Source of the DNA: an uncultured Pelagibacteraceae bacterium
GTDB lineage: Bacteria; Pseudomonadota; Alphaproteobacteria; Pelagibacterales; Pelagibacteraceae
NCBI GenBank assembly: GCA_902557215.1
Contig: CACDZM010000002.1
Span: forward strand, 123,679-187,678
Reading direction: 5' to 3'
DNA: 64,000 nucleotides
Part shown: one piece after another, positions 22,016 to 27,132 of the stretch
Numbering within the stretch: position 1 is the first letter of the stretch
Layout: each line of letters begins with the position of its first letter
The notes under the pieces: model-generated
Told to the model about the DNA's origin: nothing
Databases searched by the model: none
What the model saw: the letters and a program-made list of their open reading frames with translations, nothing else
Translations under genes and position numbers: made by a program

Positions 22016-22336
22016 ATGTCAGTACAAAAAGCAAAATTTTCTATTGGTGATATTGTAAAACATAAACATTTCGAGTTTAGAGGAGTGATTTATGATGTCG
22101 ATTTTGAATTTAATAATTCTGAAGAATGGTATCAATCGATACCAAAAAATGTAAGGCCTAGGAAAGATCAACCATTTTACCATTTATTGGCTGAAAATGA
22201 TGAAATAACTTATGAAGCATATGTATCTGAACAAAACCTGTTAGTAGACGACTCTGGTGAGCCTATCAAACATCCTTTAATTGAGGAAATTTTTTCAGGA
22301 AAAAAAGGCTCAAGTTATTTTAAGCCCTCGAATTAG
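22016..22336 (+). CDS. hspQ: Heat shock protein HspQ
   Basis: AKFSIGDIVKHKHFEFRGVIYDVD, RPRKDQPFYHLLAE, YVSEQNL. Confidence 0.93.
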   Translation: MSVQKAKFSIGDIVKHKHFEFRGVIYDVDFEFNNSEEWYQSIPKNVRPRKDQPFYHLLAENDEITYEAYVSEQNLLVDDSGEPIKHPLIEEIFSGKKGSSYFKPSN

Positions 22337-22403
22337 ATAAATCTTTTTTTAAACACATTTAGCTCAAATCTTTGACACAGCCACATACTAAATTAACATT
22401 AAT

Positions 22404-22462
22404 TCTGATCAAGAGTGTTAAACTATTACCCTTCATTATCTCCCTCTACATTCTTGATCAGA
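22404..22462. promoter_or_regulatory. Inverted repeat / candidate RNA hairpin upstream of ccmC
   Basis: TCTGATCAAGAGTGT (22404-22418) pairs with ACATTCTTGATCAGA (22448-22462): 15 bp with one G-U in RNA, 29-nt loop. Confidence 0.7.
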
Positions 22463-22490
22463 TAAAAATTCCGTAATATATCATTGGTAT

Positions 22491-23198
22491 ATGTTTAAAT
22501 ATTTTGAACCAAATAAAATTTTTTCAATCACATCAAAAGCACCTAAGTACGTTTTATTTCTATTTATTATTGTTCTTTCGATAGGATTGTTAGAGGCATT
22601 AATATTTTCTCCAGAGGATTATAAACAAGGGGATGCGGTAAGAATAATGTATGTACACGTGCCGTCTGCATGGATCTCTCTTGGGATATTTTCGTTGATA
22701 ACCTTATTGTCAATAATTGGATATATATTTAAGATTAAGAATTTTTTCTTAATTTCTAAAAGCTTAGCTCCCTCTGGTTTTATATTTAATATAATCGCTC
22801 TTGTTACAGGATCTATTTGGGGTAGACCAACTTGGGGGACATGGTGGGCATGGGATGCAAGAATTACAGCGATGTTAATTTTAGCTTTATTTTATTTATT
22901 ATATCTTTTTGCCTGGAGAGTTTTTGAAGATAAAGATAGCGTTTTTAAAGCAACATTAATAATTACAATTCTTGGTATAATAAATGTACCAATAATTAAA
23001 TATTCAGTAGACTGGTGGAATACTTTACATCAACCAGCATCTATTAATATTTTTACTAAATCTTCAATTGATATTTCGATGCTGTTTCCGTTAATGATTA
23101 TGACTGCGGCATTTGCTCTATTTTCTCTATTAATTTTTTTAATGAAATATAATACAGAACTGATAAAGATTAAAAATAAGGGCCTTGATAGATTATGA
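22491..23198 (+). CDS. ccmC: Heme exporter/lyase CcmC
   Basis: RIMYVHVPSAWISLGIF, WGRPTWGTWWAWDARITAMLIL. Confidence 0.96.
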   Translation: MFKYFEPNKIFSITSKAPKYVLFLFIIVLSIGLLEALIFSPEDYKQGDAVRIMYVHVPSAWISLGIFSLITLLSIIGYIFKIKNFFLISKSLAPSGFIFNIIALVTGSIWGRPTWGTWWAWDARITAMLILALFYLLYLFAWRVFEDKDSVFKATLIITILGIINVPIIKYSVDWWNTLHQPASINIFTKSSIDISMLFPLMIMTAAFALFSLLIFLMKYNTELIKIKNKGLDRL

Positions 23199-23422
23199 TA
23201 AATGAAATTTTAGTTATGAACGGATACGGACTTTATGTTTGGTCTGCTTTTATATTTACTCTGGTAAGTTTTGCTACACTATACTTTGTTATCAAAAATC
23301 AGTATGTGAAAGAGAGAAATAAATTTATTGTTAAATTTGGAACTCTAAACTCTGAGAGAGTATCATTAGCTAAATCTCAAGGGATGAACAAAGAAATCTT
23401 ATCAAACACTTCAAGCATTTAG
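23195..23422 (+). CDS. ccmD: Heme exporter protein CcmD
   Basis: Small ORF with MNGYGLYVWSAFIFTL; position between ccmC and ccmE. Confidence 0.85.
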   Translation: MINEILVMNGYGLYVWSAFIFTLVSFATLYFVIKNQYVKERNKFIVKFGTLNSERVSLAKSQGMNKEILSNTSSI

Positions 23423-23432
23423 CTTTTAAACC

Positions 23433-23852
23433 ATGTATGGTCGTAAAGTTAAATTAAGGTTTTTTTTTATCTTATTAATATTCGTCACATTATCTTTGAC
23501 AATTTTTTTAATTTTAAAATCACTCGAGGAAAATGTGGTTTTTTTTCAATCCCCATCAGAAATAAAAGGGTTACCAGAACTAAATAAAAAAAAGATTAGA
23601 GTGGGTGGAATGGTCAAGAATAAATCAATATCGGTTCAAGCAGAGGAGCTGAATTTTATTATTACTGACTTTAAAAATGAAATAATAGTTACTTATTCAG
23701 GTGTTGTTCCTAATCTTTTTGCGGAGGGCAAAGGGGTTGTAGCAGAGGGATATTTAAAAGATAAAAATTTTTTTCTAGCTACTAAAATATTAGCTAAGCA
23801 TGATGAAAACTATATGCCACCAGAGGTAAAAGCTGCAATAGAGGGGAAGTAG
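23433..23852 (+). CDS. ccmE: Cytochrome c maturation protein CcmE
   Basis: [14 protein letters not shown] ... [21 protein letters not shown] ... [10 protein letters not shown]. Confidence 0.97.
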
Positions 23853-23855
23853 ATT

Positions 23856-25733
23856 TTGGCAAGTTTAATAGGTTCTTATTCGTTATTTTTTAGCCTTGGG
23901 TTTTCAGTTTTAATTTTATTTTTCTCTTTTAAAAACTTAAAAAACACAATTAATTTTGATAACAAGCTTTTATCTTTAACTTTTCTACAATTGTTATTTA
24001 TTATTTTAAGTTTTTTTGGACTAATTATAGCATTTATAAATTCTGATTTTAGCAACTCAACAGTGTTTAACCATTCACATACAACTAAACCTTTGTTTTA
24101 TAAAATTTCTGGAACTTGGGGAAATCATGAGGGAAGTTTGCTTCTTTGGTTGCTAGTACTAACTTTATTTATTTTTTTGTTTTTAATAAGCTCTAAAAAA
24201 CAACCAAAAAAATATAGAGTATTAACTTTATTGTTCCAACAAATAATAATAATTGGTTTTTTAATTTTTTTGATACAAACGTCTAATCCTTTTGCTCAAA
24301 TTTATCCAGTACCATCAGAAGGTCTTGGGCTAAACCCGATTTTACAGGACCCTGCTTTAGCAATTCATCCTCCAATTTTATATTTGGGATATGTTGGATC
24401 ATCTATAATTTTTTCTTCTGTTTTAGCAGCCTCATCAACTAATTATATATCAAAAGAGTGGGCTAAGCATATTAAACAATGGATTTTAATTTCTTGGATT
24501 TTTCTTACTTTAGGAATTTTATTAGGTTCTATATGGGCTTATTATGAATTAGGTTGGGGAGGTTTTTGGTTTTGGGATCCCGTCGAAAATGTTTCATTAA
24601 TGCCCTGGTTAGCATTGACCACTCTTTTTCATTGTGTACTAGTATTGGAAAAAAAATTACTTTTAACTTCATGGGTTGTCATCCTATCGATTGCAACGTT
24701 TACTCTAAGTATGAGTGGTACTTTTTTAGTTAGATCAGGAATTTTAAATTCTGTACATACTTTTGCCAATGATCCGGAAAGAGGTTTATACATATTAATC
24801 TTTTTATTCACGCTAATATTTCTCTCACTTTTTGTTTTTTTCTTTTTTCATAAAACTGATGGACAAAACAACACTTCTTTTTTTTGGTTAAGTAAGGAAA
24901 CTTCAATCTTAATTAATAATTGGTTTATGATGTATTTTCTAGCAGTTGTTTTAATTGGTACTATATATCCAATATTTTTAGATGTTTTAACTTCACAAAA
25001 GATATCAGTTGGTCCACCTTTTTATCATAAACTAATAATTCCATTTTTAATTCCTTTTCTTCTGGCGATGGCAATCGGTCCAAAATTGAATTGGATTAAA
25101 TCAAATCTTCAAAATAAATCTCATTTATTGTTACTTTTTGCAATCTCATTAATACTATCTTTTTTAATAATTAGAATATTAGAGATTAGTTTTTTAGTGA
25201 ATACGATTTTATTTACTTCAGCTTTTTATTTATTTTTTATTACCTTGAGAGATTTTTTTATTAAGAGATTTAAAAATCTGGCTCAAAATATAGCTCATTT
25301 TGGTTTTAGCCTGTTAATACTGAGTATCTTATTTAATAATTTTTTATCAACTGAAGTAATAACAAATTTAAAGGTAGGAGAAACTTATAAATCTGATGAA
25401 TTAACAATAAATTTTGAAAAGATAGAAAAAATTAAAAAACAAAATTTTGAGGCAATTATAGGTAAATTTAATGTAAAAAGTGATAACGAATTACTAGATA
25501 TATTAAAACCTGAATTGAGAATTTATAACCAACCAAATATAGTTACAAGTGAAGCTGATATTAAGACAAATTTATTATCCGATAAATTTATGACCATGAA
25601 TTTAGTTCAAAATCAGGAGTATTTTAATATTAGGTATCAGATCAAACCTTTTATGATTTGGATCTGGTTTTCTGTAATAATAATTAGTTTTGGTGGGTTG
25701 TTCAGCTTTTTCAAAAAAAAATATGAAAACTAA
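23856..25733 (+). CDS. ccmF: Heme lyase CcmF
   Basis: GTWGNHEGSLLLW, LGWGGFWFWDPVENVSLMPWL. Confidence 0.97.
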   Translation: MASLIGSYSLFFSLGFSVLILFFSFKNLKNTINFDNKLLSLTFLQLLFIILSFFGLIIAFINSDFSNSTVFNHSHTTKPLFYKISGTWGNHEGSLLLWLLVLTLFIFLFLISSKKQPKKYRVLTLLFQQIIIIGFLIFLIQTSNPFAQIYPVPSEGLGLNPILQDPALAIHPPILYLGYVGSSIIFSSVLAASSTNYISKEWAKHIKQWILISWIFLTLGILLGSIWAYYELGWGGFWFWDPVENVSLMPWLALTTLFHCVLVLEKKLLLTSWVVILSIATFTLSMSGTFLVRSGILNSVHTFANDPERGLYILIFLFTLIFLSLFVFFFFHKTDGQNNTSFFWLSKETSILINNWFMMYFLAVVLIGTIYPIFLDVLTSQKISVGPPFYHKLIIPFLIPFLLAMAIGPKLNWIKSNLQNKSHLLLLFAISLILSFLIIRILEISFLVNTILFTSAFYLFFITLRDFFIKRFKNLAQNIAHFGFSLLILSILFNNFLSTEVITNLKVGETYKSDELTINFEKIEKIKKQNFEAIIGKFNVKSDNELLDILKPELRIYNQPNIVTSEADIKTNLLSDKFMTMNLVQNQEYFNIRYQIKPFMIWIWFSVIIISFGGLFSFFKKKYEN

Positions 25734-26241
25734 AATCTTATTACCATTTACAATTGTTTCTTTTCTATTTATTTTTTTTATTCTTTATGTGGGTTTAAAT
25801 CGCTCAAATATTTATATACCAGAGACAGTAACTAATGAAAAAATTCCAACATTTAAAGTAAAAGTTTTTAATTCAGAAAAAGAATTAACGTCTAAAGAAA
25901 TTTTTGAAAATGATATTTACTATTTACTAAATATATGGGCCTCTTGGTGTATTCCTTGCAGAGACGAACATCCCTATTTAATGCAATTAAAAAAGAATAA
26001 AAAATTAGAAATTGTTGGTTTAAACTATAAAGACAAAGTAAAGAATGCTAATAATTTTTTAAACGAATTAAATAATCCGTATACATTAATTTTATCAGAT
26101 ACAGATGGAACTATTGCAATTGAATGGGGAGCATACGGAGTACCTGAGACATTTTTAATACATAATGGAAAGATTATAAAAAAAATTATAGGACCTATGA
26201 ATAACAACCTTTTCAAAGAAATTGAGAGAGCAGTAAAATGA
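25723..26241 (+). CDS. ccmG: Thiol:disulfide interchange protein CcmG/DsbE
   Basis: NIWASWCIPCRDEHPYL, YGVPETFLIHNGKI; start at MKTKILL overlaps ccmF. Confidence 0.93.
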   Translation: MKTKILLPFTIVSFLFIFFILYVGLNRSNIYIPETVTNEKIPTFKVKVFNSEKELTSKEIFENDIYYLLNIWASWCIPCRDEHPYLMQLKKNKKLEIVGLNYKDKVKNANNFLNELNNPYTLILSDTDGTIAIEWGAYGVPETFLIHNGKIIKKIIGPMNNNLFKEIERAVK

Positions 26242-26603
26242 AAATATTAAATCTTCTAGTAATAATTGTTTTCTTTTTTAATTTTAATGTGTCCAACGCA
26301 AAAGATAGAAATTTAAATAGCAAAATTACAAAAAATTTACGCTGTTTAATTTGCCAAGGACAATCAATTTATGATTCTGATACTGAGTTTGCCAACAGTC
26401 TAAAATTAGTTGTTGAAAAAAAGATTATAGAGGGAATGTCGGAGAATGAAATTTACGAATTTCTTAAGACAAAATATGGGGAATGGATATTATATGACCC
26501 AGCTTTAAACCAAAAAACCTATATTTTATGGCTTTTACCCTTATTGTTATTTCTAATTGGAGGTGCAATAATATTTAAAAATTTGAAAATTAAAAAAAAT
26601 TAA
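26238..26603 (+). CDS. ccmH: Cytochrome c-type biogenesis protein CcmH
   Basis: LRCLICQGQSIYDSDTEFA, KYGEWILYDP. Confidence 0.95.
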   Translation: MKILNLLVIIVFFFNFNVSNAKDRNLNSKITKNLRCLICQGQSIYDSDTEFANSLKLVVEKKIIEGMSENEIYEFLKTKYGEWILYDPALNQKTYILWLLPLLLFLIGGAIIFKNLKIKKN

Positions 26604-26616
26604 GCATATTAACTCG

Positions 26617-27132
26617 ATGAAAATTTTAAAAAGTTTATTTATATTAATATTATTTACATTTCCTTTAGCAACAGCGTCTGAGGAAATTAAAATGAAAGAT
26701 AAATCTACGGAATTAAACGTTTATACAGGAATGTTTGATTTTAGTGATAATGGAAAAAGATCAACCTTAATTGGAATTCAACATCAGAATGAAAATTTAA
26801 GAAGAAACTCTTTCATAGGAAACTTATCTCCAATAACAGGTGCAATGTTAACAGCAAACAATGCTTCTTACTTTTATACTGGGGTTCAAGCAGAATACAC
26901 GCTTGGTGTTTTAAACCTTACTCCAAGTTTTGCACCAGGGTATTATAATAAGGGAGATGGTAAAGATCTTGGTCATTCTCTTGAATTCAAAAGTGAAGTG
27001 CAAATATCTCTTGAATTGCCAAAAAATAATAGTCAACTAGGTTTTTCATATAACCATATATCAAATGCAAGTTTAGGTGATAAAAATCCTGGTGCTAATA
27101 GTTATTCATTTAACTTTCTTCAACAATTTTAA
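26617..27132 (+). CDS. Acyloxyacyl hydrolase / PagL-like outer-membrane protein
   Basis: C-terminal SYNHISNASLGDKNPGANSYSFNFLQQF resembles the PagL HxSNA region; signal peptide. Confidence 0.72.
   Translation: MKILKSLFILILFTFPLATASEEIKMKDKSTELNVYTGMFDFSDNGKRSTLIGIQHQNENLRRNSFIGNLSPITGAMLTANNASYFYTGVQAEYTLGVLNLTPSFAPGYYNKGDGKDLGHSLEFKSEVQISLELPKNNSQLGFSYNHISNASLGDKNPGANSYSFNFLQQF

Follow-up and report, generated by a model that had tools for sequence, protein, structure and literature searches.

A covarying hairpin with a near-invariant CUCCCU loop follows hspQ across a SAR11 family

A hairpin downstream of hspQ in a Pelagibacteraceae (SAR11) genome is selected as RNA for its pairing, and its CUCCCU loop motif has been held almost unchanged while the stems turned over. 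Together with an operator-like block of conserved DNA immediately upstream it forms a unit whose place downstream of hspQ is kept in all genera of the family that were examined, irrespective of the gene that comes next. We consider it a new family of bacterial regulatory RNA, confined to this SAR11 family and apparently unnamed. The reading we prefer, with confidence somewhat short of even, is that the hairpin forms the 5′ end of its own response-regulator-driven transcript and serves as an operon leader that docks a trans-acting partner through its loop. Features of the locus in the analysed stretch of 64,000 nucleotides, hereafter the window, are collected in Table 1.

Table 1. Features of the hspQ-ccm-pagL locus, given as positions in the window
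Feature	Position	Strand	Basis
hspQ (YccV-like, PF08755), constant upstream neighbour	22016..22336	+	Pfam, synteny
Conserved DNA block, inferred OmpR-family operator	22340..22379	+	Alignment, periodicity, half-site tallies, profile
C-centred half-sites of the block, 11 bp apart	22341-43 ATC, 22352-54 AAC, 22363-65 CTC, 22374-76 GAC		
Candidate -10 element TAAATT	22389..22394	+	Inferred; position varies between sequences
5′ stem arm TCTGATCAAGAGTGT	22404..22418	+	Sequence read directly, folding, alignment
Loop, pyrimidine-rich and free of G	22419..22447	+	Sequence, family comparison
Near-invariant loop motif ATTATCTCCCTC, core CTCCCT at 22440-22445	22435..22446	+	Alignment; tally, n=79 sequences
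3′ stem arm ACATTCTTGATCAGA	22448..22462	+	Sequence read directly, folding, alignment
ccmC (PF01578), next gene in most genera	22491..23198	+	Pfam
Rest of the ccm operon: probable ccmD (by position only), then ccmE, ccmF, ccmG (by position and homology), ccmH	23195..26603	+	Pfam
pagL-like gene, lipid A 3-O-deacylase (PF09411)	26617..27132	+	Pfam, synteny

In the window the stem comprises 15 pairs including one G-U (the arms are complementary at 14 of 15 positions as DNA) around a 29-nt loop, and its 3′ foot lies 28 nt from the ATG of ccmC at 22491 within a 154-nt intergenic region (22337-22490). An earlier note on this DNA had described the hairpin and the size of the region in these terms, and direct reading of the sequence bears out both. 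Folded as RNA the intergenic region reaches -22 kcal/mol against -12.5 ± 2.7 for shuffled versions (z -3.5), with 1 of 200 shuffles folding as well. The earlier note knew of no described element at this place and had proposed an Rfam scan and a test for covariation in relatives. A permissive search of the window region against Rfam 15 gave chance matches only, far below the gathering score, and at the gathering threshold eight loci returned tRNA alone and no family for the hairpin.

Covariation was found both within the window's genus and across the family. A genus-level search covered DNA of 100 relatives, the region being present in about half, and all 45 of the loci compared within the genus sit between hspQ and ccmC. 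Standard pairs occupy 98.7 % of pair cells among 41 distinct hairpins of this genus, and both partners have changed at 8 of the 15 pairs in the genus alignment, where shuffles give 4.1 and slid controls 2-4. Across 17 sequences from 15 genera double changes are found at 15 of 16 pairs with 95.2 % of cells pairing, while an independent structure prediction on the cross-genus alignment yielded 14 pairs, all with double changes. The stem sequence is almost wholly replaced between genera with pairing kept, as illustrated by the stems of genera g12 (TAGCCTAGTTAGGGACG/CGTTCTTAATTGGGCTA), g6 (TACCTAACTGAG/CTCAGTTAGGTA) and g5 (GTCCAGTTTGAAG/CTTCAAACTGGAC). Genera g7 and g11 (L140-L142, L144-L146) have GACAAACTTTGTCACATT in common directly 3′ of the stem, with which their 3′ arm could pair instead, giving a possible alternative fold.

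The loop is conserved as sequence: its 3′ half (TATCTCCCTC) is nearly invariant in the window's genus. The UCUCCCU motif hardly varies, and 74 of 79 sequences have the exact CTCCCT core, the remaining five carrying small changes or insertions. Loop length ranges from 17 to 37 nt across the family. G-U combinations occupy 162 stem cells and A-C combinations one, a ratio towards which the stem-finding step itself contributed by favouring G-U; in agreement with this excess the + strand gives the more stable fold in 69 of 79 sequences, which together point to the + strand transcript as the selected form. Each arm of the window hairpin contains the palindrome TGATCA, and the earlier note had for this reason offered a DNA operator bound by a dimeric repressor as an alternative. 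That proposal does not survive comparison with relatives, as TGATCA is missing from the stems of other genera (of the CCTAATTAGG, GTCCAGTTTGAAG and CCTAACTGAG types), some stems of the window's own genus carry GACC/GGTC in its place, pairing is commonly kept through G-U, and sequence conservation resides in the loop. We regard it as extremely improbable.

The position of the hairpin directly 3′ of hspQ would suit an intrinsic terminator of that gene, and in the window a GTG frame runs through the hairpin, as might be expected of a coding leader (a uORF or attenuator). However no U-tract follows the window hairpin, no terminator-like site was found there, and no intrinsic terminator lies between it and ccmC; the absent U-tract and the large loop uphold the view of the earlier note that this is not a typical intrinsic terminator. 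Loop lengths across the family differ by amounts that are not multiples of three and 1-nt insertions occur within the motif, so that no reading frame is kept. Either form of this explanation is highly unlikely.

The usual gene order is hspQ, hairpin, ccmC(D)EFGH and pagL, and pagL is among the downstream genes wherever the contig reaches far enough. The earlier note suggested cis-acting control of ccm, possibly linked to heme, iron or redox state. In favour of such a sensing element, dedicated to cytochrome c maturation, ccmC follows the hairpin in most genera. In genera g10, g12 and g14 however hspQ and the hairpin are followed directly by pagL, and in the two of these for which the location of the ccm genes is known (g10 and g12; in g14 the hairpin-pagL order was read) they are found elsewhere with no hairpin detected beside them. 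Synteny therefore largely refutes the ccm-specific reading, which we consider very unlikely, and the hairpin's linkage to a gene for lipid A deacylase speaks for control of the envelope and not of heme. Of the regulatory RNA proposed in the earlier note, what stands is a conserved, covarying and probably transcribed element; its specificity for ccm or heme does not. At the relocated ccm loci (L192 in g12 and L193 in g10) ccmE lies directly 5′ of ccmC on one strand with FGH-type genes on the other, and the g12 genomes G430, G439, G440 and G442 contain a second, diverged hspQ-like gene of 42-48 % identity.

Of 398 genomes of the order, about 250 gave a covariance-model match, a single one in each, and almost all of these genomes belong to the window's genus. 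By inspection of hspQ loci the hairpin was found at the same place, 3′ of hspQ, in each genus of the family with readable sequence, one further locus in the survey ending at a contig edge. The downstream regions of hspQ read in the sister family f2 contain no hairpin, covariance models found no copy in about 380 other Alphaproteobacteria, and viral contigs contained no exact match. Longer loops dominated the sequences from which the two models, R1 and R2, were built, and the short-loop hairpins of g5 and g11 escape them; absence outside the family consequently rests on longer-loop models together with the f2 reading. Nine near-complete genomes of the genus (90-97 %; G119, G129, G134, G170, G193, G205, G211, G221 and G022) that gave no hairpin match also gave no match to hspQ or ccmC and so provide no argument against conservation of the hairpin; either their assemblies share a gap or the hspQ-ccm region has really been lost from them.

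R1 and R2 found no extra copies within genomes. The complete genome G103 nevertheless contains a second copy (L275 at about 1500-1660; G103:C1:182097-182250), detected only through the loop complement and the profile of the upstream block, which is matched there too. It has the same loop (TTATTATCTCCCTCT) on a different stem (CAATCCTTTTCC/GGAAAAGGATTG) and is flanked by a MOSC-domain gene on one side and hypothetical genes on the other, about 50 nt 5′ of a 61-aa ORF. Two DNA methyltransferase-like genes, identified by reading the sequences, belong to a cluster nearby, and the copy is possibly carried by an island.

The upstream member of the unit is a 40-bp block at the start of the intergenic region that aligns almost gap-free in all genera. 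Invariant or near-invariant C residues occupy block columns 4, 15, 26 and 37, a spacing of exactly 11, and among lags 4-20 only lag 11 is significant (z 3.56, p 0.0002). The half-site consensus runs GCC (often ATC or GTC in the window's genus), AAC, NNC and GNC. A profile of the block matches 22343-22379 with 31 bits, well clear of any other match in the window, and in most of the genomes tested its best match is the hspQ locus, with the next ones near background. Direct half-sites spaced at 11 bp are typical of OmpR-family regulators, and this layout suggests a response-regulator operator of that family, with binding of such a regulator predicted. Sites of this period have been published for OmpR-family regulators of alphaproteobacteria, namely the Sinorhizobium ChvI site, N-GCC-N8-GCC (as cited in PMC9731502), and the CenR site, TGA-N8-TGA (PMC9275681). 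Like ChvI, CenR and PhoB operators the block places direct half-sites about 11 bp apart ahead of a -10 element, although its half-sites are GCC/ATC, AAC, NNC and GNC in AT-rich DNA. Two-component systems that could supply the regulator are very few in SAR11, namely ChvG, PhoR/PhoB and EnvZ/OmpR, all of which are present in strain HTCC1062 (PMC13198564).

Between the block and the stem there is usually a TANNNT element, at no single fixed position, and the stem mostly begins 20-27 nt 3′ of the block. A -10-like hexamer and this distance place the predicted 5′ end of the transcript at about the foot of the stem, and in the window we infer a transcription start at about 22401, within a few nt of it. 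On the leader reading an OmpR-family regulator of the ChvI, OmpR or PhoB type would bind the four half-sites and recruit polymerase, and the transcript would begin within a few nt of the stem and read through into ccm-pagL, or pagL, with the hairpin as the leader of that operon. The stem would close the 5′ end and keep the C-rich loop single-stranded, and a partner docking on CUCCCU in trans, either a small RNA or an RNA-binding protein that recognises pyrimidines, would set how stable the operon mRNA is or how well it is translated. Favouring a leader, a co-directional gene lies close 3′ of the hairpin (28-59 nt away in the window's genus) with no terminator between them, and pagL recurs downstream. 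Against it, the -10 position is variable, the gene directly downstream differs between genera and the loop pairs with the starts of ccmC, E, F, G, H and pagL at chance level (mean z near 0). This lack of complementarity to the translation starts of the operon also makes it unlikely in our view that the loop covers a ribosome-binding site.

A weak excess of TATAAT 5-7 nt before the start of ccmC (69 % of sequences, which are related to one another, compared with 53 % in shuffles) counts further against a leader. No Shine-Dalgarno sequence precedes ccmC at 22470-22490 in the window or at the homologous sites, and these are hints that ccmC may own a near-leaderless promoter which, if real, would make the hairpin a separate RNA. 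A free-standing or 5′UTR-derived small RNA, expressed from its own response-regulator promoter and pairing with AGGGAG-like sites in distant mRNAs through a CUCCCU seed, is quite possible though we doubt it. Such an RNA would account for a unit that is independent of the downstream gene, to the extent that ccm can leave, and for the recurrence in G103 of the same loop on another stem among unrelated neighbours; RNAs that present a seed combine a stem of free sequence with a single-stranded loop that is fixed, as seen here, and Caulobacter ChvR offers a precedent (PMC6237742). Set against this are the missing terminator 3′ of the hairpin, with ccmC so close in the window, and the outcome of target searches. 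In 10 genomes the loop complement GAGGGAGAT showed no enrichment relative to its reversed control; all but two of its recurrent sites were inspected and lie mainly within coding sequence (gyrB/parE-type EGD codons), and no leader target common to the genomes was found among them. GGGAG and AGGGA are rare before starts in the window, where no convincing target was present. Leader and small RNA both fit the pattern overall, and a free stem, a fixed C-rich single-stranded loop and an operator of its own argue for recognition of the loop in trans. The more specific proposal of a small RNA that acts in trans, occurs essentially family-wide and answers to an OmpR/ChvI-type envelope regulator, its partner recognised through the CUCCCU loop, is likewise possible but rather doubtful.

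Stabilising stem-loops of the ompA type, located at transcript 5′ ends, need only their stem. The SAR11 hairpin resembles them (Emory 1992 as cited in PMC6237742) in that its stem is predicted at or near the 5′ end of a transcript, and differs from them in that the loop sequence is its most conserved part. ChvR, a ChvI-driven and Hfq-independent small RNA of 84 nt (PMC6237742), is likewise an alphaproteobacterial stem-loop RNA with single-stranded interaction sites and is driven by an OmpR-family regulator. It has however three stems and occupies another locus, whereas the SAR11 element is one conserved hairpin, the target search for which was negative; the SAR11 element has operator-like 11-bp repeats, with ChvI as a candidate regulator. 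Rhizobiales SmelA075/SmelA099 (PMC3927594) share a conserved C-rich loop on variable stems but contain three or four hairpins with anti-Shine-Dalgarno loops CCUCCUCCC and occur in several copies per genome, compared with a single CUCCCU on one hairpin in one copy here (G103 being the exception). No Shine-Dalgarno-type target of the CUCCCU loop was found, its complement being unenriched in the genomes searched and rare before starts in the window.

Intergenic structured RNAs have been described in SAR11 before, including rpsB, rpsL, ffh, SAM-V, rhtB, pntA, bablM and SAR11_0636 in Pelagibacter (main text of PMC2704228) and the motifs of HIMB5 (main text of PMC6429828), which the present element resembles in kind. 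Neither main text describes an hspQ/ccm element, and those of PMC2864571, PMC8632094 and PMC11109978 name none. For HIMB5, 30 intergenic regions are classified in a supplementary table (PMC6429828), where an unnamed earlier entry is possible.

Three outputs of this analysis are open to direct test, namely the covariance model, the predicted start site and the predicted operator. SAR11 bacteria rank with the most numerous cells of the ocean, and transcriptional regulators are very few in them. Their mRNA and protein levels are reported to be decoupled (PMC2864753). For control after transcription, an RNA that occurs throughout the family with a fixed loop and an operator-like promoter offers a concrete candidate. 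If the small-RNA reading is true, this would be a response-regulator-driven SAR11 RNA and among the most numerous regulatory RNAs of the ocean.
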